A stretch of 64,000 nt of DNA, taken from Desulfovibrio sp. (lineage in GTDB: Bacteria; Desulfobacterota; Desulfovibrionia; Desulfovibrionales; Desulfovibrionaceae). Of this stretch, positions 1,130 to 37,456 are shown in pieces. The notes under the pieces were generated by a model. That model searched no databases, was not told the DNA's origin, and saw only the letters and a program-made list of their open reading frames with translations. Positions within the stretch are counted from its first letter, which is position 1. Every line of letters starts with the position of its first letter. The translations under genes and the position numbers were made by a program. The stretch spans positions 1 through 64,000 of the forward strand of contig JAIKXS010000010.1 of assembly GCA_024683955.1 (NCBI GenBank), written 5' to 3'.

Positions 1130-1615
1130 TCAGAACGGCTTAAATGTCGAAACGGCCATGTTCACAAGACCGTTATACAGGTTCTTCATGGATTTGGGAT
1201 ATTCAAAATGCAGAGTGGGCCAATGGTCCTCGTGATAAAACTGCTTGGTATAGATAATCTTGCCATTTTCCTCATAGGATACGGCATACCATCCCTGTTC
1301 CTTGTTGACCCGTCTGTATGCGGCCTTCGGCATGCTGTCAGCCTTGGCAAAAAAATCTTCACGGCTCACGTCTCCAACTCTCGGTTCAAGGGCTGCGTAG
1401 GCCTGCATGGTGAGGCCCTTGCCGTCGGTGACCGTGATGCCGTCCCCATTGTCAGCCTCAAACACGGTATAGGTTCCTGGCGTCCAGGAAAGAGAAAAAC
1501 CGAAACGGGCATTATGATAGGCGGGAGATCCGGGGTCTACCGTGATTTCTCCTGCGTAGACAAGCGATGTGGCAAAAACGAACATAAGTGTCAGAAGCAC
1601 CCAATATCTGGCCAT
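1130..1615 (-). CDS. Exported small protein, paralogue of the 13332-13856 gene
   Basis: The 161-residue protein begins with a clear signal peptide (MARYWVLLTLMFVFATSLVYA, cut after AYA-like VYA). The start is supported by AGGAG five bases upstream. I do not recognise a named family. The body has the pattern Y-x-N-x-x-x-GFS-x-x-x-x-PG near residue 35 and a final block with WYAVS, a KQFYH-like strand and STFKPF. The protein at 13332-13856 has the same pattern in the same order (Y-x-N, GFSFALPAG, DWFAIT, ESFKPG), so the two are distant paralogues. The layout recalls the PsbP/DcrB-like fold of small exported or lipid-anchored proteins, but that is a guess from pattern alone. No catalytic residues are visible. 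Confidence 0.75.
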   Translation of the reverse strand: MARYWVLLTLMFVFATSLVYAGEITVDPGSPAYHNARFGFSLSWTPGTYTVFEADNGDGITVTDGKGLTMQAYAALEPRVGDVSREDFFAKADSMPKAAYRRVNKEQGWYAVSYEENGKIIYTKQFYHEDHWPTLHFEYPKSMKNLYNGLVNMAVSTFKPF

Positions 1616-1689
1616 ACTGTCTCCTCATACGCTCCCTGCTCGGAACAGCCCCGAAACATTTCGGTTTTTACAAAAAAAGCGGCAGGCAG

Positions 1690-2436
1690 TCACTCCTGCT
1701 GGCTCCCGTTCTCCGTATATTGGCGCTTCCAGGTTCCGGCCTTCTCACCGGGGCTTAGCACGAGACGGAAGGTTCCGGGCTTTCTCATCTCCTCGGGATC
1801 GCCAATCACTTCAATAACATCTCCCGTAAGGAGAAAGCCCTCGCCCTTTTTTGAAATATCCTGCAGAACGGCTTCGGTTCCCGCATCGCCGAGACCATCG
1901 ATGCTCACAAAATACCCCTTATCGGTGAGAAGGGTCTCGCCAAAAAAATCATCGCCCTTGGGGGCTGCGTGTTTCTTTACACTGTGCCCCGTAAAGTGCA
2001 GGGCAGCCCCTTCAACAGCCTCCCTGGTGAGGAAGCATGTAAAGGATTCGGCGCGATTTTTGAAGGCCTCCGGATTCTCACTGCGCAGGAGGACCTGATT
2101 AGCTGAAACGGTCTGCCCGTTGACGGTAAAGAGCGGGCTCGATGCCGGTAAAGGCTTTTGTCCTTCTTCCTTGCGCTTTTCCTGCTCATACACAAAGATA
2201 TTTTTCGCGTTGTAGGCACCGAAAAGTGCCGCCTTGATGATATTCCCAGGCGCTTTCACATAGTCGGATTCGCCGCTCAAACCGAGATACGACGCTATGG
2301 TTGCTGTTTCCGAAAGCACCCGCTTCGCGTCTTGCTTTGAGAGGTCGGAAGCCTTGCAAAGGTCCGGGGAAAAAATAAGTGAAGCCCCTAAAATCACGGA
2401 AAAAGAGAGATACCGTATGATGCTGCCTATGCTCAT
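1690..2436 (-). CDS. Exported protein of unknown function, distant paralogue of 3662-4303
   Basis: The 248-residue protein has an N-terminal signal peptide ending near CKA-SDLS. The start at 2436 has AAGGAA about 6 bases upstream. No family is recognised. Features in order are an Asp/Lys-rich helical stretch after cleavage (SKQDAKRVLSETATIASYLGL), a hydrophobic FGAYNAKNIF segment, then a C-terminal beta-rich part with GEGFLLTGDVIEVIGDPEE and GTFRLVLSPG. The protein at 3662-4303 shows a similar plan: a post-signal S-Q-x-E-M-K-R helix, FGIMHNYVNNF, then NVVHMKGDIFNAEDKDD and STFEATARPV. Identity is low, so the relation is probable, not proven. It lies in a minus-strand series of exported genes. 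Confidence 0.65.
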   Translation of the reverse strand: MSIGSIIRYLSFSVILGASLIFSPDLCKASDLSKQDAKRVLSETATIASYLGLSGESDYVKAPGNIIKAALFGAYNAKNIFVYEQEKRKEEGQKPLPASSPLFTVNGQTVSANQVLLRSENPEAFKNRAESFTCFLTREAVEGAALHFTGHSVKKHAAPKGDDFFGETLLTDKGYFVSIDGLGDAGTEAVLQDISKKGEGFLLTGDVIEVIGDPEEMRKPGTFRLVLSPGEKAGTWKRQYTENGSQQE

Positions 2437-2451
2437 GGAGCGTTCCTTCTT

Positions 2452-2486
2452 GTGACGGATACAGGAAGCACGCCTGTATCCGTCAC
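2452..2486 (-). other. Perfect 14-bp inverted repeat between two exported-protein genes
   Basis: GTGACGGATACAGG is separated by 7 bases from its exact reverse complement. It lies between the stop of the 2559-3230 gene and the Shine-Dalgarno of the 1690-2436 gene. No T-run follows on either strand, so it is not a standard terminator. It could be a rho-assisted terminator, an RNA-processing or stability hairpin, or an attenuator for the downstream gene. Confidence 0.6.
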
Positions 2487-2558
2487 CGGTTGAGTCAGTC
2501 TGACACCGTTGCTCACACTACACGGAAAAAGTCCCGAGTAAAAGGCCTCCGCCCGGCT

Positions 2559-3230
2559 CTATTTCTTTTCACGGACGAAATCGCCGTCAAATGTGACACC
2601 TGCACCAAGGGCACCGCTTTTCTTGAAGGCCTCTGGTTCAGCGATGGTTGCCGTATCGCCCTTGAAGGTGATGTTGACAGGATTCTGATCATCATTCTTG
2701 TCAACGGCGCTCATGACATTCCCCTTAAGTTTTCCAAAGCCCGCAAGCTCACCACTGTTATTAGGGGCATTCTTCTGAATGGCATAGATTTCCACGGCAT
2801 AGAGATCCGGCTCATCTCCCTTCTCAACAAGAAGCCAGCCGTCAAAGGCCTTGCTCTGCATGCGGTAGAAGCCCTGTGCACCTTCCGGATGACGTCGGAG
2901 CCAATCACGTTTAATCTCCTGCTTTGCCCGTTCAAGAGCTATGGTGTAGGCGCTTTCCCACGCTTCGGATTCCTTGGTGTCCGATGCCATGTCCTCCTTT
3001 ACCTGCTCCGTCATTGCAGCTTCAAGGGACTTCTTGAGATCGGCAAAATCTTTCGCCTCAAGACGTTCTTCGGCCTCTTTGAGCGTAGCGGTGTATGATT
3101 CAAATGCGTTCTTATATTCCTCGTCGGCCATGAGCGCGTCATGGTTGGCGGGGGCGGCGTAGACTGCGCTGGACGCAAACAACACAAAACTGGTCAGAAA
3201 AAACGTTTTTTTGAAAAAGGAGAAAATCAT
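2559..3230 (-). CDS. Exported alpha-helical protein of unknown function
   Basis: The start is placed at the ATG at 3230 because GGAGG lies 6 bases upstream and the protein then opens with a good signal peptide (MIFSFFKKTFFLTSFVLF, cleaved near VYA-AP). The ORF track begins 8 residues earlier. After cleavage comes about 90 residues rich in Ala, Glu and Lys, likely helical or coiled (EEYKNAFESYTATLKEAEER). A C-terminal half follows with short strands (AFDGWLLVEKG, YAVEIYAI, GVTFDGDFV). No family is recognised and no catalytic motif is seen. Codon choice matches its neighbours. It belongs to the exported-protein run. Confidence 0.65.
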   Translation of the reverse strand: MIFSFFKKTFFLTSFVLFASSAVYAAPANHDALMADEEYKNAFESYTATLKEAEERLEAKDFADLKKSLEAAMTEQVKEDMASDTKESEAWESAYTIALERAKQEIKRDWLRRHPEGAQGFYRMQSKAFDGWLLVEKGDEPDLYAVEIYAIQKNAPNNSGELAGFGKLKGNVMSAVDKNDDQNPVNITFKGDTATIAEPEAFKKSGALGAGVTFDGDFVREKK

Positions 3231-3348
3231 CCCGTGCCTCCTTATTATCTCCACGACGGCAAAGCACCCCGGGCCATACCGTCAGACTGAAATGCTTTGA
3301 CAACATACGAAACAAAGCATTGGCCGTATTTCCGATCGACGACAATAC

Positions 3349-3624
3349 TCACCTGATTATACGAAGATTGCAAACGCTCATTTCGTTTTGCACCGTGGTC
3401 GTCCAGTGTCCCGTCCATTCGGCATTCTGTCCGGGATGGGACAAAAGCCAGTCCTTCAGGACCTCGGGACAACGTATCTTCGCGTGCTCATTATCCCAGA
3501 TGGGCCCCGCTTCCACATCAAAGCTTTTCTGATGGGTTGTTCCAGAGTCAGCCTGCGCGTGCACGAGTCCCGGAAGAAAAAAGGAGAGCAGCAGAACACT
3601 TCCAAGTGCCAATCGCAACATCAT
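3349..3624 (-). CDS. MVL-type mannan-binding lectin, exported, single domain
   Basis: The 91-residue protein has a signal peptide (MMLRLALGSVLLLSFFLPG, cleaved near VHA-QA) followed by one lectin repeat. The motif set GPIWDNEHAK, then AEWTGHWTTTVQNEMSVC, matches the Microcystis viridis lectin family, whose repeats read roughly GPLWSN-x-EAQ and FTGQWTT-x-V-E-x-x-MSV. MVL has two such repeats; this protein has one and adds two Cys (IRCPEV and SVCNL) that could form a disulfide after export. The family binds high-mannose oligomannosides. A purine-rich GGAAGAAG precedes the start. Its role here is inferred: binding host or microbial mannose glycans at the cell surface, or blocking them. Confidence 0.8.
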   Translation of the reverse strand: MMLRLALGSVLLLSFFLPGLVHAQADSGTTHQKSFDVEAGPIWDNEHAKIRCPEVLKDWLLSHPGQNAEWTGHWTTTVQNEMSVCNLRIIR

Positions 3625-3661
3625 AACGACTTCTTCCTTTTTTGACCCATTGCAGAAGCTC

Positions 3662-4303
3662 TTAGCGCTGCGTGGATTTAAAGGAAAGGATCACCCAGCT
3701 GTTCTTTCCATCCCTCTTGACAGGTCTGGCAGTCGCCTCAAAGGTTGAAGGACGGTCATCCTTGTCTTCGGCATTGAAAATATCGCCCTTCATATGCACG
3801 ACATTGTCCGTAAGCGTCGCTTCCTTCACAAGGGCGTGATACACCGCCTCACCATCCGCCCCTTCAAAGTGATACTGCTTGCCGTCAAAATGGTAGACCG
3901 GATCCGAGTTCTCAACACTGGCATGTTTCAGGTTAATTCCAAAATATTTTTTGACACTCTCGGCCACGTAGGTTGCGTCGATCACGAGCGAGCCGTACTT
4001 GCACCCGGCCGTCGAACATTTTTTGATTCGTTTTTTAAAGTTGTTCACATAGTTATGCATAATGCCGAAACGGATAAGATCCGGATCTGACGGATCAGCA
4101 CCGAAATGGAGAAGATTCTCGTCTCCATCCTTCTGGACGTCAAAGTTCATGAAGCCAAGTTCCGTGAAGTTGCTCAGAAACGTGCTCATGCGTTTCATCT
4201 CAGGCTGTGAGACGTCGGCGGCACGGGCCTCTGTCAGCCCCTCTGAGGTAACAAATCCAAGTGTCAGCAAAAAAAGCAGTGTTTTCAACAAAAGATGTCT
4301 CAT
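3662..4303 (-). CDS. Exported protein of unknown function, distant paralogue of 1690-2436
   Basis: The 213-residue protein has a signal peptide (MRHLLLKTLLFLLTLGFVTS, cleaved near ARA-AD). GGAGG about 7 bases before the ATG supports the start. Two Cys (KKCSTAGCKYG) near the middle could pair in the periplasm. The C-terminal half looks beta-rich (YHFDGKQYHFEGADGEAVYH, VHMKGDIFNAEDKDD, SWVILSFKS). Its arrangement parallels the 1690-2436 product, as described there. I recognise no family. It lies immediately upstream of the lectin gene in transcription order, with 37 bases between them, so the two may be cotranscribed. Confidence 0.7.
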   Translation of the reverse strand: MRHLLLKTLLFLLTLGFVTSEGLTEARAADVSQPEMKRMSTFLSNFTELGFMNFDVQKDGDENLLHFGADPSDPDLIRFGIMHNYVNNFKKRIKKCSTAGCKYGSLVIDATYVAESVKKYFGINLKHASVENSDPVYHFDGKQYHFEGADGEAVYHALVKEATLTDNVVHMKGDIFNAEDKDDRPSTFEATARPVKRDGKNSWVILSFKSTQR

Positions 4304-4452
4304 GTGGTTTTCCTCCAGATAGTGTGAAAAAACTATGCGTTCGTAATGCCCAAAGGTGCCGTTCTTTCCGGAGAACGAAAAGCTTCATGACATGAACAGG
4401 GAGAGGACAGTCTTTACACCGGATCCCCCTGTCAGCCCTGGCATGAAGAAGG

Positions 4453-5211
4453 TTACTTCTTACCTTTCAACATTTCTGACCGGGACAGACGTACCTGGGT
4501 ATCGCTGACCTTTTCGTCATCGGCCCAGTCCTTTGCACCCTTCACAACGCTCTCCATAACTTCAAGAGATCCGTCCTTCGTCTCGATGCCGGTAATGCAG
4601 TAGTTTCGGGTCTCTGTGGCGGCACGGAGTACGTTTGTTTTGCCCGTTATGACATCATGAAGAGCTATGGAACTCCACCAGAGATCAAACTTTCCGCTGA
4701 CTCTCATCCCCTTTTTCATATCGACGGAAGTAACGGCAAACGTCCTGGCATCGATCCAGAAGGAAGGTCCCTGCACAGGAATCTCTGTCTTTTTTACAAA
4801 GTCCTTGTTCTTCCCGACCGCATAAACGTTGAGATGCTGGACATATTCCATCCCCCAGGAAAGCAAGAAATACTCTCCGGACGGGGAAAAGGTCAGTCTG
4901 CAGGATTCCACTTCTTCCGTTACGGGCAAAAAGCCCGCAGGAGCAGCGTCCTTTCCCCTGAAAAAGTAGATTCCCTCCTCTTTTTCACCCAACCCGTCGA
5001 ACTGGTTCTGACCCACAAGGATCCAGGACCAGAGTCCGGCTTCCGTCCCGACCTTCTGCACCGGGCAGTCCTTCAGAGCCGTTTCCCTGCCATCCTCAAT
5101 ACGAAAGGCGTTCCCATCCTTAATGAGAATGGTGCCCGGAGCGGCGCAGGCCGGTTCTACAAAAAGCATCCCGACAAGCAGCAGGATGCCAAGCAGGCGT
5201 ACAATCTCCAT
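4453..5211 (-). CDS. Exported protein with beta-propeller-like strands, unknown function
   Basis: The ATG at 5211 is chosen because GAGGGG lies 7 bases upstream and the protein then opens with a signal peptide (MEIVRLLGILLLVGMLFV, cleaved near CAA). The ORF track adds 58 unlikely residues. The 252-residue product has repeated strand-loop units such as LTFSPSGEYFLLSWG, LNVYAVGKN and SIALHDVITGK. The first resembles the F-SPDG blades seen in TolB/WD40-like propellers. With only about four such units, a full propeller is not certain. A promoter was looked for upstream and none was convincing. Confidence 0.65.
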   Translation of the reverse strand: MEIVRLLGILLLVGMLFVEPACAAPGTILIKDGNAFRIEDGRETALKDCPVQKVGTEAGLWSWILVGQNQFDGLGEKEEGIYFFRGKDAAPAGFLPVTEEVESCRLTFSPSGEYFLLSWGMEYVQHLNVYAVGKNKDFVKKTEIPVQGPSFWIDARTFAVTSVDMKKGMRVSGKFDLWWSSIALHDVITGKTNVLRAATETRNYCITGIETKDGSLEVMESVVKGAKDWADDEKVSDTQVRLSRSEMLKGKK

Positions 5212-5397
5212 AGGTGATCCCCTCTGTTTGAAAAGCGTTCTGTCAGACAACTCTTTTGTCTTGGTGATTTCATGACACAAACGTTCCGTACGCTTTCCCT
5301 TTCCACAACGAAAGATATACCACAAAAGGTAGTTTTTGAAAAAACAGGGTTTCCCCGTGCCGGACAGCAGGAAACAGGAGAACAAACGACGGGCACG

Positions 5398-5634
5398 TCA
5401 CATAAAAAGCAATATTAAAAACAGAGCGGCAGAAAAAGCAGCCGCGAGTCCGTGGATCCAGGAGAGAATGCGCCACCCGCGCGTACGGAAAAACCATGCA
5501 ACAAAACCAAAGAGGAGGAAGGCGCAGATAGCCGCGCAGAAAAGGTGAGGTTCCTGCCTTGTGAGAAAGAGGAGGGCCAGCACATAGGCATACCCACCTA
5601 TCCCGAGAAGTGAACAAAAAGCAAGAAAGATCAT
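5398..5634 (-). CDS. Small three-helix membrane protein
   Basis: The 78-residue product from the ATG at 5634 has three hydrophobic spans (MIFLAFCSLLGIGGYAYVLA, FCAAICAFLLFGFVAWFF, and a final GLAAAFSAALFLILLFM) joined by short charged loops. CGGAG lies about 6 bases upstream of the start. The ORF track extends 31 residues further, but that part has no hydrophobic or coding character. The family is not recognised. The case rests on the regular hydrophobic pattern; a chance ORF is still possible. Downstream bases on the minus strand include an imperfect GTGCC/GGCAC stem and TGTTTTTT, a weak terminator candidate. Confidence 0.45.
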   Translation of the reverse strand: MIFLAFCSLLGIGGYAYVLALLFLTRQEPHLFCAAICAFLLFGFVAWFFRTRGWRILSWIHGLAAAFSAALFLILLFM

Positions 5635-6219
5635 GGGGTCTCCGGGGAAAGAGGGGAGAGGGGAAGAAGGCACGACGTACGGCAGGAAAAAACAGTTGTG
5701 GGACCGGCATCGTGCCTTTCTTATCAAACGCGCCGTAAAATACCGCCCTTCTGGGAGAGGATATAAGGCATGTACGGATCCGCCCTTGACCTCACCTTAG
5801 CTGAATTTCATTTCTTTCCTGTTCCAACATACTCTTTGGCGGATCGGCAAGCCGTGTCAGCCTGGAGCGAGACAGTGAGCCCCGGAGGAAGAGGGCGCTG
5901 GCTCGCTGCCGTAAACGTTCCCGCCGTGGGAATTTGAATGCAAAAATCAGCTGATGTTCCTCCGGGCGGTTTCGTCGATGCGGAAAGCCCGCTTTGAAAT
6001 GCAGGCCAAATCCCGTCTCCGCCAGCCACCCCCCGCGTTGGGTGAAGGAGGATGACAACCGCACCTCCGCTTCTTCGGGAACATATGTTCTGATCATTCC
6101 GCCGGGTCCTCCGGAGAAGACTTCGCCGGCATTGCAATTGCGAAGAAAGAATGGGCATGCAGTCATATTCCGTTGAACGGGGAGAGAAGCCGGAACGGAC
6201 TGAATAAGGACGTTGGCCT
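5635..6219 (-). other. Gap of 585 bp with a possible degraded small gene
   Basis: The minus-strand ORF 5792-6166 contains a stretch with protein-like pattern (SSSFTQRGGWLAETGFGLHF), while a second frame continues plausibly afterwards (ADFCIQIPTAGTFTAASQ). That is what a frameshifted remnant would look like. Neither frame has a good start or a recognised family. GC-rich DNA easily gives such ORFs by chance, so I do not call a gene. Confidence 0.25.
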
Positions 6220-8151
6220 CTACCAGCCGCCCCCGCCGCCGCCACCCGTGCTTCCGCCGTCTGAATCGCTGCCTCCGGAGTCTCCGTCTCCGGAGGCTCT
6301 CTGTGATGCGCCATAGGCAACACCTGCGGCGCTTGCGGCAGCAAGAGCCGAGCTATAACTGGGATCCGTTGCCACGAAAACGTACAGCGGGTTTTCCATA
6401 TAGGGATCCTGCCAGTCCTTGCAGGAACCGGTCTGGGCACAAATCATTTCGAAGCGTTTTTCCCAAGCCTTTGCCTTGCCAATGGCCAGGGCGTAGGGCA
6501 GCATCTCACCGTAGCGCTCGGGAGTATCATCGTGGTCACTGAGACGATCGGAACGTTCCGTTCCGGCCCGGCTTATATAGAGGGCCAGGCCCTCCACAGC
6601 CGCACGTGCCTTAAGACCTTCAGAGGTCGGACGGACGGGAAAACACAGCCAGAAAAAAAGCGGGGCAAAGACTGAAGTCAGCGCCGCTGAAAAAAACAAG
6701 GGGTCATATTCGGTAAGGATGCCCAGTATCAGCACTGAACATGAGCAGGACAGACAAAGGGCGATCCTCCGTACAATCCCTTTTTTCATACATATAAGAA
6801 TCGGGAGCGCCGAAAGAAAACCAAAGAAAACGATACCGATAAAATGATCAAGAAGACCCTGGCCGTCGTAAATGCCAATCCATCCGGAAAAATAGAAGGC
6901 AGCATAAAGAAGAAGGACGTTTACGAGGGCGCCCGAAAGAGGCAGAAGAGCGGATCTCGGGGCCATTGACTTCATCTTCTGACGGTATCCGCTCTCAAGG
7001 TTCCCGAACGCATGGTAGAGACGTTCTCCGTCATCGCTGCGAACAGGTCTCCAATCGTCTGGCATGCCCTGCCGCAGATCGCGGACGATCTCTCCGTGTT
7101 CCGAAAAAAGCCTGTTTGCAATGCCGAGGCACGCTTCATTCTGCCAGTTCTGCCGTACCCGTTTGGGCCATGCGGGGACAAAGGTCCAGTTGTTTTCGCC
7201 CTTTTCCATACGCATAAAGCCTGAGACAGCCGTCCAAAGAAGATCGGCATGAAACGCAAGCTCCGGTTTGCCGCTAATATACGCGGCAAGCCCCGGGGAA
7301 ATCCCTTCGGGAGGCGAATAAAGCGGAACAACAGGAAGCTTTCTGCCACGACGGAAGAGAAACCAGAAAAGAACAAAAAAGAAAAGCGGAATAAGGGCAG
7401 TGCCCTGCATAATCTGCGGGCCATAGGCGCCCATGCGTTCCCGGAGGGACTGTGCGGGGAGCGTGATTCCGCCTCCCTCCCAACGGACGTGAATGACCAG
7501 GGCCTCACCCTTCCCGAGGGGCCGTTCCGTGACAAAAAGATGACCGTCTCCCACGGTTCCTTCATCCGTTTTCTGCGCTCCCTTCGATATGCAGGAGGAA
7601 AAATCGGTGACTCGTGAGCCGTCAGGCAAAATAAGGAGAAGTTCAGCCTGATCAATCGGAAGATTCCACTGTTTGCCCGTTACATTGTAATGAATGGCAT
7701 AGCCGTTCTTTTCCCGGCGCAGATGGCCCGTTGCGCGGTAGGTAATCTCAAAGACGTGTGTGCCCTTTTCGAGCTCCGTTTCGGAATTACCCAGAACAAA
7801 GGTGGTCTGAAGGTCACTGTCTTCTCTCCGTACCTGAACGGGAGTGTTGTCCATCCGCGCCTCAAGAAGCTCGACATGTCCTATTCCAAGGTGCCTCGCA
7901 TGCCAGGTCAGCGTCGGAATGGAACGGAAAATTCCGTGTCTGACAGTATCTTGCTCGGCCGTCACGGAAATTGATTCCTTCACAAGCAGGGACGCATCCG
8001 TCTGCACTCTGACCTCTGCGGAAAAGGAGTCGATACATTCCCGTGCGTGACAGCACTGTGACATGAAGACAAAAATGAAGAGAAGCCCCCCGGCAAAAAC
8101 AGGGAGGCCCAAAAAGGCAAAACCTTTCTCCTTATGCACATTCACGGACAT
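6220..8151 (-). CDS. DUF2207 family membrane protein
   Basis: This 643-residue protein matches the DUF2207 plan. A signal or anchor segment is followed by an extracytoplasmic beta-rich domain (about 45-230) with the family-like opening 'DASLLVKESISVTAEQDTVRHGIFRSIP' trimmed here to DASLLVKESISV and HGIFRSIP. Next comes a transmembrane span near 245-265 (TALIPLFFFVLFWFLF), a cytoplasmic region, a cluster of hydrophobic spans near 415-510, and a C-terminal Ser/Gly tract ending GGGGGGGW. That Gly-rich tail with a terminal Trp is typical of the family. Members often sit beside LemA genes, but none is seen here. The biochemical function is unknown. No Shine-Dalgarno is obvious before the ATG, so the start is less certain than the rest. 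Confidence 0.88.
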   Translation of the reverse strand: MSVNVHKEKGFAFLGLPVFAGGLLFIFVFMSQCCHARECIDSFSAEVRVQTDASLLVKESISVTAEQDTVRHGIFRSIPTLTWHARHLGIGHVELLEARMDNTPVQVRREDSDLQTTFVLGNSETELEKGTHVFEITYRATGHLRREKNGYAIHYNVTGKQWNLPIDQAELLLILPDGSRVTDFSSCISKGAQKTDEGTVGDGHLFVTERPLGKGEALVIHVRWEGGGITLPAQSLRERMGAYGPQIMQGTALIPLFFFVLFWFLFRRGRKLPVVPLYSPPEGISPGLAAYISGKPELAFHADLLWTAVSGFMRMEKGENNWTFVPAWPKRVRQNWQNEACLGIANRLFSEHGEIVRDLRQGMPDDWRPVRSDDGERLYHAFGNLESGYRQKMKSMAPRSALLPLSGALVNVLLLYAAFYFSGWIGIYDGQGLLDHFIGIVFFGFLSALPILICMKKGIVRRIALCLSCSCSVLILGILTEYDPLFFSAALTSVFAPLFFWLCFPVRPTSEGLKARAAVEGLALYISRAGTERSDRLSDHDDTPERYGEMLPYALAIGKAKAWEKRFEMICAQTGSCKDWQDPYMENPLYVFVATDPSYSSALAAASAAGVAYGASQRASGDGDSGGSDSDGGSTGGGGGGGW

Positions 8152-8178
8152 GGCAAGATGAGCCTGGCTTATGTACCA

Positions 8179-8628
8179 CTAACTTGTTCTTTTAAAATTA
8201 TATTTTAAAATTCGTATACGCACATTTTTATATGGGAACCAACCTTTGGCAGGATTTACCTTGCGTTTGAACTCTGTCTTAAGATTTTTTGAATGTCCGG
8301 GTTCAAGAACTGGCTTAAAGACATAATTAATGTCAACATTTCTTTGATATGTTTCTTTCCTTCCATTACCAATATCACCTGTCAATTCAAGAGTAACACT
8401 GTTAAGTTTTGAAATATATTCAACATCTGATGTATTTTTTACGGTAAAATGAAAAACAATGGACTGTTTACCATTGTTCACCTTTCCTATCTGTGTTTTT
8501 TTGACTGACAAACTTAATGGACCTGCATCTGCAGATGTTGTTAAAACAATGGAAAAGAAAAGTAGGATAAAAATATGACAACAAGCAAGAAATACGGTTC
8601 TTATTCTGTTATTCATCGCCAAGCGCAC
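8179..8628 (-). CDS. AT-rich exported protein of unknown function
   Basis: The 149-residue protein has a signal peptide (hydrophobic FLACCHIFILLFFSIVL, cleaved near ADA-GP). The mature part looks like a small beta-sandwich with alternating strands (SIVFHFTVKNTSDVEYI, SVTLELTGDIG) and a basic C-terminus (FKRKVNPAKG, RIRILKYNFKRTS). A phrase such as F-TVKNTS is common in proteins with Ig-like or bacterial FxLYD-like domains, but no family can be assigned. The base composition is far lower in GC than its neighbours, both in the gene and its upstream flank, with many A- or T-ending codons. This indicates recent transfer or unusual selection. The start could also be the MNNRIR Met four codons later. 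Confidence 0.7.
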   Translation of the reverse strand: MRLAMNNRIRTVFLACCHIFILLFFSIVLTTSADAGPLSLSVKKTQIGKVNNGKQSIVFHFTVKNTSDVEYISKLNSVTLELTGDIGNGRKETYQRNVDINYVFKPVLEPGHSKNLKTEFKRKVNPAKGWFPYKNVRIRILKYNFKRTS

Positions 8629-8697
8629 TCTTTTTTATAGAAAAAAGGTTATTTGTCACCAAATTAAAGATGTCGCTAAAAACAATCTTGTGCACAA

Positions 8698-9441
8698 TCA
8701 ATTCAAAGACAGGGCTTTTATACCCTCAGGAGTAGCAGGGACCCATGTTATCCTGAGTGGATCAGCGCCTCCGAGGATGCCGGAAACCCAGGCCTCATAT
8801 ACGGGCGTATCCACCGGTGCAGGATCCTCCGACTCATCGCGCGAAGGATCACTGATGAAATACACAAAACCGTCACCCGTCACATCAATCTTTTGGGGAA
8901 AGGGCTCATCGTCGCGGGGGTCTGTTGGGTAGGCTTTCCTGCTCCATCCATAGACACGCCCCTTTTCCTCGCATGAGCCTTTTTTTGCGTCGCAACAAAT
9001 GAGAGTGTAGGGCCAGAACGTCCCCCCGGCGGTACGATTGCGTCTTGCCTTTTCCTTAATACAGCCGTTGGTAAAGTATTCAAGCTCGGGAAAGCCCTCA
9101 TACATTATGGTAATCTCTCCCCTGCTTTCGTCAAAACCGCACACAAACTCCTGCATTGAGAAGGTCGGACCGCTCTGAAACCGGACAAGAAGCTCCGGCT
9201 TGCCGTCCATATCCACATCAGCAAGTGCAAGCTGATTCTCTCCGAAATCCCCCTGCAGAAGTTCCTTATCTATGGAATCCCCGGTCGGGAGCACATGATT
9301 CCGGACAAAGGCCTCCGCAGCTGTACGAAACGCCTCTTGTCTCACGTCAGCTGCGTGCACATCTTCCGTACAAAGAAGAAAAATGGGAAGAAAAAAAAGA
9401 AGCAGAGCGTGACGAAAACCCGTTCCACAACGTTTTAGCAT
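8698..9441 (-). CDS. Exported protein with one DxDxDG (VCBS/EF-hand-like) motif
   Basis: The ATG at 9441 has AGGGGGG about 5 bases upstream and gives a signal peptide (HALLLFFLPIFLLC, cleaved near VHA-AD). The 247-residue product carries ADVDMDGKPELLVRF near residue 80, the Asp-rich calcium-binding-like loop followed by a strand found in VCBS/FG-GAP-type repeats, and a second partial loop (DVTGDGFVYF) near residue 195. Four Cys (GCIKEK, LICCDAKKGSC) could form disulfides. No enzyme motif is seen. Similar loops occur in the products at 19891 and 20865. The first 63 residues of the ORF track entry are ignored. Confidence 0.7.
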   Translation of the reverse strand: MLKRCGTGFRHALLLFFLPIFLLCTEDVHAADVRQEAFRTAAEAFVRNHVLPTGDSIDKELLQGDFGENQLALADVDMDGKPELLVRFQSGPTFSMQEFVCGFDESRGEITIMYEGFPELEYFTNGCIKEKARRNRTAGGTFWPYTLICCDAKKGSCEEKGRVYGWSRKAYPTDPRDDEPFPQKIDVTGDGFVYFISDPSRDESEDPAPVDTPVYEAWVSGILGGADPLRITWVPATPEGIKALSLN

Positions 9442-9499
9442 TGTACCCCCCTGACATTTTCCCGTCCGCCAAGCGATGGAATGCCGGCATACAAGCAAA

Positions 9500-9775
9500 T
9501 CAGAAGACAGAACTGTCGTCCGACAGCCCCAATACCGCACGTTCAACATCACAGCCTTCAAGATTACAACCCCGTATTCTATCGTCACTCCCTGCGAAGG
9601 ACAGGAACGGATTGGTTCCATCGGGATCATGCACTATACGGCATTCAGGACATGTCCACCGTCTTATCTTCAGTGATTGCGCCATCTTTTTCTCTGTTAT
9701 GATGCCGTCGTACCCAGAAAACATCAATGGCTTGCACACAAATTTTGCTGTAAAAGTACGGTCTTTCAAAGACAT
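9500..9775 (-). pseudogene. Degraded TnpB-like (IS200/IS605 family) zinc-ribbon relic
   Basis: The 91-residue ORF contains SLKIRRWTCPECRIVHDPDG. This resembles the C-terminal zinc ribbon of TnpB proteins (L-x-x-R-x-WTCP-x-CG-x-x-HDRD-x-NAA). The first CxxC pair is missing, the expected CG is CR, and HDRD is HDPD. The rest of the protein, including the RuvC-like core, is not present. Bases on either side show stop codons in all useful frames. I read it as the last remnant of a transposon-associated gene; a chance resemblance cannot be excluded. Confidence 0.45.
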
Positions 9776-37117: not shown

Positions 37118-37451
37118 CGAGTTGAACGAACCGTCGCTGCGACAGAATGTCGGAGAGGAAAGTCCGGGCTCAGCAGGGCAGGACGCTGGGCAACACCCAG
37201 AGGGGGTGACCCCTGGAAAGCGCAACAGAAAGTAAACCGCCGCATCCGCGGTAAGGGTGAAAGGGTGGGGCAAGAGCCCACCAGAGGATACGGTGACGTA
37301 TTCTGCTAGGCATACCCCGTCATGAGCAAGACCAAGTAGGAAAGGGGCCGGCCCGGCCGTAACCTTTCGGGTAGGTTGCTTGAGGGCACGGGTAACCGTG
37401 CTCCTAGATGAATGACGGTTCTCGACAGAACCCGGCTTACAGTTCGACTCG
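37118..37451 (+). ncRNA. rnpB: RNase P RNA, bacterial type A
   Basis: The catalytic RNA that trims tRNA 5' ends. Conserved blocks are in order: GAGGAAAGTCCGGGCTC, CAGGGCAGGACGCTGGG-like P-region, ACAGAAAGTAAACCGCC (universal ACAGAAA), GGTAAGGGTGAAA, and the 3' part ATGAATGACGG with ACAGAACCCGGCTTACAG. The ends are set by the P1 stem CGAGTTGAAC pairing with GTTCGACTCG (one G-U). Length is about 334 bases. It lies between the zinc-ribbon gene and ispDF. Confidence 0.95.
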
Positions 37452-37456
37452 TTTGC

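Follow-up and report, generated by a model that had tools for sequence, protein, structure and literature searches.

A predicted exported, single-domain member of the MVL family encoded within a conserved gene cluster of Desulfovibrio

The gene and its surroundings

The window, i.e. the whole stretch of 64,000 nucleotides from the Desulfovibrio contig analysed here, encodes on the minus strand (open reading frame 3349-3624) a protein of 91 residues, MMLRLALGSVLLLSFFLPGLVHAQADSGTTHQKSFDVEAGPIWDNEHAKIRCPEVLKDWLLSHPGQNAEWTGHWTTTVQNEMSVCNLRIIR, comprising an apparent signal peptide, a short linker and a single MVL domain, the only copy of this domain found in the genome (Table 1). By eye, the N-terminus has the look of a type I signal peptide, with MMLR followed by a hydrophobic core and a VHA/QA junction, in keeping with the export signal claimed in an earlier note on this DNA. 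The nearest named relatives of the genome are Desulfovibrio metagenome-assembled genomes, one from sheep rumen and two carrying rumen-type isolate names.

Table 1 Features of the MVL gene and its neighbours in the window. The signal-like N-termini of the neighbours were judged by eye.
Feature	Position	Strand	Description and basis
MVL-domain protein gene	3349..3624	-	91 aa, ATG start
GGAAG, ribosome-binding-like	3633..3637	-	8 nt before the ATG; by eye
Signal peptide codons, residues 1-23	3556..3624	-	cleavage proposed between VHA and QA; by eye; model pLDDT low
MVL domain, residues 36-88	3361..3519	-	strand-helix-strand-strand; Pfam, phmmer, AlphaFold (pLDDT about 95)
Cys52 codon	3469..3471	-	invariant; alignment
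Cys85 codon	3370..3372	-	nearly invariant, likely disulphide partner of Cys52 (inferred); alignment
Glu46 codon	3487..3489	-	opposite Asp75 in repeat 2 of MVL, mostly D among congeners; alignment
g3662	3662..4303	-	upstream neighbour, 213 aa, signal-like N-terminus, no Pfam family
g2559	2559..3254	-	downstream neighbour, 231 aa, signal-like N-terminus, no family over cut-off
g1690	1690..2436	-	248 aa, signal-like N-terminus, conserved cluster member
g1130	1130..1615	-	161 aa, signal-like N-terminus, conserved cluster member
g4453	4453..5250	-	signal-like N-terminus, conserved cluster member, start uncertain

The gene is part of a conserved order on one strand, running from a DUF2207 protein through g5398, g4453, g3662, the MVL gene, g2559 and g1690 to g1130, and a stand-alone MVL gene was found between g3662 and g2559 in three other genomes as well (G015, G036 and G069). 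As only 37 bp separate g3662 from the start of the MVL gene, the two are likely co-transcribed; a scan for consensus signals, in which promoters were as frequent as expected at random and terminators roughly twice as frequent, revealed no terminator or promoter clearly separating them. A shorter version of the cluster, lacking g3662, g4453 and the MVL gene, was found in G024, and in G153 a single protein of 437 residues (L075:11626-12939) combines g2559 with g3662, a fusion which suggests that the two products act together. Pfam searches with the adjacent genes returned no family over cut-off, nor did a structural match of use emerge when the fused g2559-g3662 protein was modelled (mean pLDDT 70.5). 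Matches to ureidoglycolate lyase that appeared in searches for neighbour function were weak (E about 0.002) and below cut-off, and we do not believe them. No homology was detected by BLASTP between g1130 and the N-terminal part of one of the MVL fusion proteins of the genus (from G285).

More broadly, the minus strand from 1130 to 9630 carries approximately ten small genes, most with a signal-like N-terminus and no Pfam family, among them one DUF2207 protein and one weak FG-GAP protein, and the order is largely kept in three congeners. Elsewhere the window encodes a bacterial RNase P class A RNA (37118-37455, 300.7 bits), and no tRNA was found in it. A phage or plasmid origin was considered and rejected, the window protein having no match in collections of phage, plasmid and viral contigs; the form of the protein found in Phaeobacter likewise had no match when compared to plasmids. 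A link to anti-phage defence was also dismissed, with PADLOC returning zero matches for the MVL protein and four of its neighbours.

Family, predicted fold and conserved residues

The earlier note had assigned the protein to the MVL type from two stretches, GPIWDNEHAK and TGHWTTTVQNEMSV, both of which are present exactly as quoted, and had named a profile search and structure prediction as checks. Pfam returned a single family, MVL (PF12151), with 33.9 bits (E 3e-8) against a curated cut-off of 25 bits, and the best solved structure by sequence was MVL itself (1zhq; phmmer E 6e-12), both repeats of which align to the window protein. An AlphaFold2 model built with 18 aligned domains as input was of low confidence over the first ~30 residues, corresponding to signal and linker, and near pLDDT 95 over the remainder, with a modelled order of strand (34-40), helix (45-62), strand (68-78) and strand (82-89). 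When compared to the PDB with Foldseek, the model matched apo MVL (1zhq) first, with a probability of 1.00, an rmsd of 1.0 Å over 54 columns and an E-value of 7.7e-3, modest because the MVL domain is small; the second-ranked match had an E-value of 0.46. Sequence and predicted structure agree on the MVL fold, and the family assignment of the earlier note was borne out by both.

The profile score, the predicted strand-helix-strand-strand fold and the motifs GPIW.N, W.G.W.T and MSV are all features of PF12151, and the two Cys together with the signal peptide, the latter judged by eye, are those of an exported Cys-pair MVL module. The two tandem repeats typical of the cyanobacterial MVL lectin proper are absent. 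The 91-residue protein is thus a member of the MVL domain family and not a two-repeat MVL lectin. Domain, motifs and fold are shared with the Microcystis viridis lectin (MVL; 1zhq, 1zhs; PF12151), with 35% identity over the domain, whereas MVL, with two repeats, lacks Cys at either place and the window protein combines a signal peptide and two Cys with a single repeat. The cyanobacterial MVL has been studied as an antiviral lectin. Its homodimers have four sites each, the minimal ligand being a Man-Man-GlcNAc-GlcNAc core (PMC3407925), and one MVL site was found to hydrolyze chitotriose (PMC8004682).

Nine residues (P41, W43, A48, G72, W74, T76, M82, S83 and V84) are shared by the window protein, MVL repeat 2 and the other relatives in the comparison, and the three motifs are conserved. 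The domain is under purifying selection, with pN/pS values of 0.05-0.41 between the domain copies of relatives. The two Cys mentioned in the earlier note correspond to Cys52, invariant across the aligned Desulfovibrio domain copies, and Cys85, found in every aligned copy bar one that is incomplete at a contig end. As both are present together or absent together, MVL having neither, a Cys52-Cys85 disulphide is predicted as likely from the alignment. Residue 46 lies opposite Asp75 of MVL repeat 2, which we take to be the catalytic residue there. Of the 12 complete Desulfovibrio domains, 11 have an acid (D or E) at this place. The residue is Glu in the window protein and Asn in one congener, and among the Pseudomonadota copies several carry N, A, P, Q or G, so that an acid at this place is no requirement of the family.

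The module in Desulfovibrio and in other bacteria

An MVL domain was found in 11 of the 79 genomes sampled from the genus. In the phylum-wide sample it was found in two genomes out of 395, both of them Desulfovibrio, and the domain is thus rare in the phylum outside this genus; three genomes of another genus in the same family encode it as well. The carriers in congeners are mostly exported proteins, with the domain located C-terminally in proteins of about 205 residues (G285, G147, G302) or mid-protein in proteins of 403-513 residues (G031, G153, G023). The core domains of eight Desulfovibrio fusions (L024, L027, L030, L040, L042, L044, L028 and L021) are 58-73% identical to that of the window protein and, where complete, contain both Cys as it does; there, however, the domain is C-terminal or central in proteins of 200-513 residues, whereas that of the window stands alone. 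In one of these (L021, cut by a contig end) the MVL domain is C-terminal on an FG-GAP protein akin to the product of window gene 8698-9630. A further congener locus (L020) encodes an MVL protein of 89 residues with a lipobox-like LAGC. The second MVL copy of G069 is a frame of 211 residues without a clear signal (L028:6890-7516), and, by eye, it lies near an excisionase-like helix-turn-helix protein and possibly in a mobile element.

In some of the syntenic stand-alone relatives the N-terminus could, by eye, remain as a membrane anchor, and location may therefore vary among them. The domain is too short for its tree to be resolved, and the tree paired the window copy loosely with the fused copy of G031 (87/80); unlike the tree, synteny ties the window copy to the stand-alone genes.

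An MVL protein from the other Desulfovibrionaceae genus (L012) resembles the window protein in being exported and in having an MVL domain with Cys, and differs from it in that the domain lies C-terminal to a thiaminase-1 domain, contains additional Cys and is shorter in the helix region. Exported thiaminase-1 (PF22141) with a C-terminal Cys-rich MVL domain was seen in this protein (L012:226-1617, G215) and at L009 and L013. The gene following the L012 fusion has, by eye, the look of a methionine sulphoxide reductase AB fusion.

In the phylum of Phaeobacter, the Pseudomonadota, 12 of 399 sampled genomes gave an MVL match, many of them exported and with Cys at the two positions of the window protein. 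Seven compared loci (L047-L052 and L062) share with it the signal peptide, the MVL domain and the two Cys positions, while most of them have two repeats and a shorter loop from helix to strand; the repeat number is one in L052 (92 aa) and two in L047-L050. In L051 the MVL domain forms the end of a CN-hydrolase protein, an exported carbon-nitrogen hydrolase (L051:1483-2544) of a Pseudomonadota-side genome. Our literature search found no study on exported Cys-pair MVL proteins of Pseudomonadota.

With one-repeat, two-repeat and fused forms occurring across Desulfovibrio, its sister genus and Pseudomonadota, the MVL domain of the exported Cys-pair type is a dispersed module, of which the window protein is the free one-repeat form. 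The earlier note had set a single repeat, two Cys and an export signal against the two repeats of the known lectin. All were found as described, and they are a usual form outside cyanobacteria and no oddity, since every complete Desulfovibrio copy contains the Cys pair, which recurs in exported MVL proteins of Pseudomonadota, the single-repeat L052 among them. The locus is thus a genuine gene under selection, belongs to the family proposed, and is ordinary in kind and unusual in its distribution.

Proposed function and ligand

We consider it probable, on balance, that the gene encodes an exported one-domain protein of the MVL family acting as a disulphide-closed carbohydrate-binding module with a single site. 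Without its signal peptide the mature protein would have roughly 68 residues, and the Cys52-Cys85 disulphide would close it in the oxidising periplasm or extracellularly, giving a free module with one site. The predicted ligand is a short GlcNAc/Man oligosaccharide like the N-glycan core (Man-GlcNAc-GlcNAc or chitobiose-like), and the module may keep a glycan, or a protein carrying one, close to the cell envelope, alongside the small exported proteins of the cluster. Having a single site, it would not be expected to cross-link cells unless oligomers form. The lectin function is proposed by homology with MVL, to which identity is about 35%. As the minimal MVL ligand is a Man-Man-GlcNAc-GlcNAc core, GlcNAc-rich ligands would also be plausible, including the N-glycans of the bacterium itself. 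These N-glycans, and the same exported form in bacteria of other lifestyles, make the choice of ligand wider than the host or yeast mannan suggested in the earlier note, which would be only one option among several. The blocking of such glycans, also raised there, found no support.

That option takes the protein to be an exported lectin against foreign high-mannose glycans, be it of host mucosa, rumen fungi, protozoa or yeast. The binding of oligomannose cores by MVL (PMC3407925) speaks for it, as do the three related Desulfovibrio genomes of sheep rumen or with rumen-type names, the rumen being home to fungi and protozoa. The window protein, however, has a single site and shows no sign of surface anchoring, the domain is present in only 11 of the 79 congeners, its cluster contains no pointer to adhesion, and the same exported form is found in other bacteria outside the gut; we regard this reading as unlikely. 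Alternatively, the module could bind HexNAc oligosaccharides placed on periplasmic proteins by the cell's own STT3/PglB-type oligosaccharyltransferase. Desulfovibrio PglB enzymes are active in E. coli tests, and the HmcA protein of D. gigas has an N-linked glycan with three HexNAc on Asn261 (PMC4894442; PMC3392279), comparable in size to the chitotriose cleaved by one MVL site (PMC4894442; PMC8004682). The D. gigas sugars are, however, not all GlcNAc (PMC3392279). An STT3-family match was found in the window genome (G000) and in 77 of the 79 genus genomes, which agrees with such a role but does not discriminate, since STT3 is found almost throughout the genus and does not track with MVL (11/79). 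A reader of the cell's own N-glycans seems unlikely to us.

Two further readings concern the site itself. The protein could be a small glycosidase hydrolyzing chito-oligosaccharides at a site with an acid in the place of MVL Asp75, given the hydrolysis of chitotriose by one MVL site and the D or E in all but one of the complete Desulfovibrio domains; the residue in the window protein is nevertheless Glu, and the Asn of one congener and the varied residues of several Pseudomonadota speak against an acid as a family requirement. Enzyme activity is only a possible reading of the sequence, and we rate the glycosidase as very unlikely. If, on the other hand, the lectin role had been lost, the fold would serve exported proteins as a module for structure or for protein-protein contacts, and its fusion to unrelated exported proteins would fit any generic module of this kind; the aromatic and motif residues of the family are still conserved under purifying selection, which makes such a loss highly improbable.

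The predicted single-site carbohydrate-binding module would be a smaller, exported, Cys-containing form of MVL in an animal-gut anaerobe, encoded in a conserved cluster and reused on other exported proteins, and its version of roughly 68 residues could be a handy tool for measuring the binding of a single MVL site. A bolder and decidedly doubtful proposal is that in gut and rumen Desulfovibrio the exported, disulphide-stapled one-site module, free or fused, reads the HexNAc N-glycans that the bacterium's own PglB-type enzyme attaches to periplasmic proteins; if true, it would be a bacterial lectin for bacterial N-glycans.
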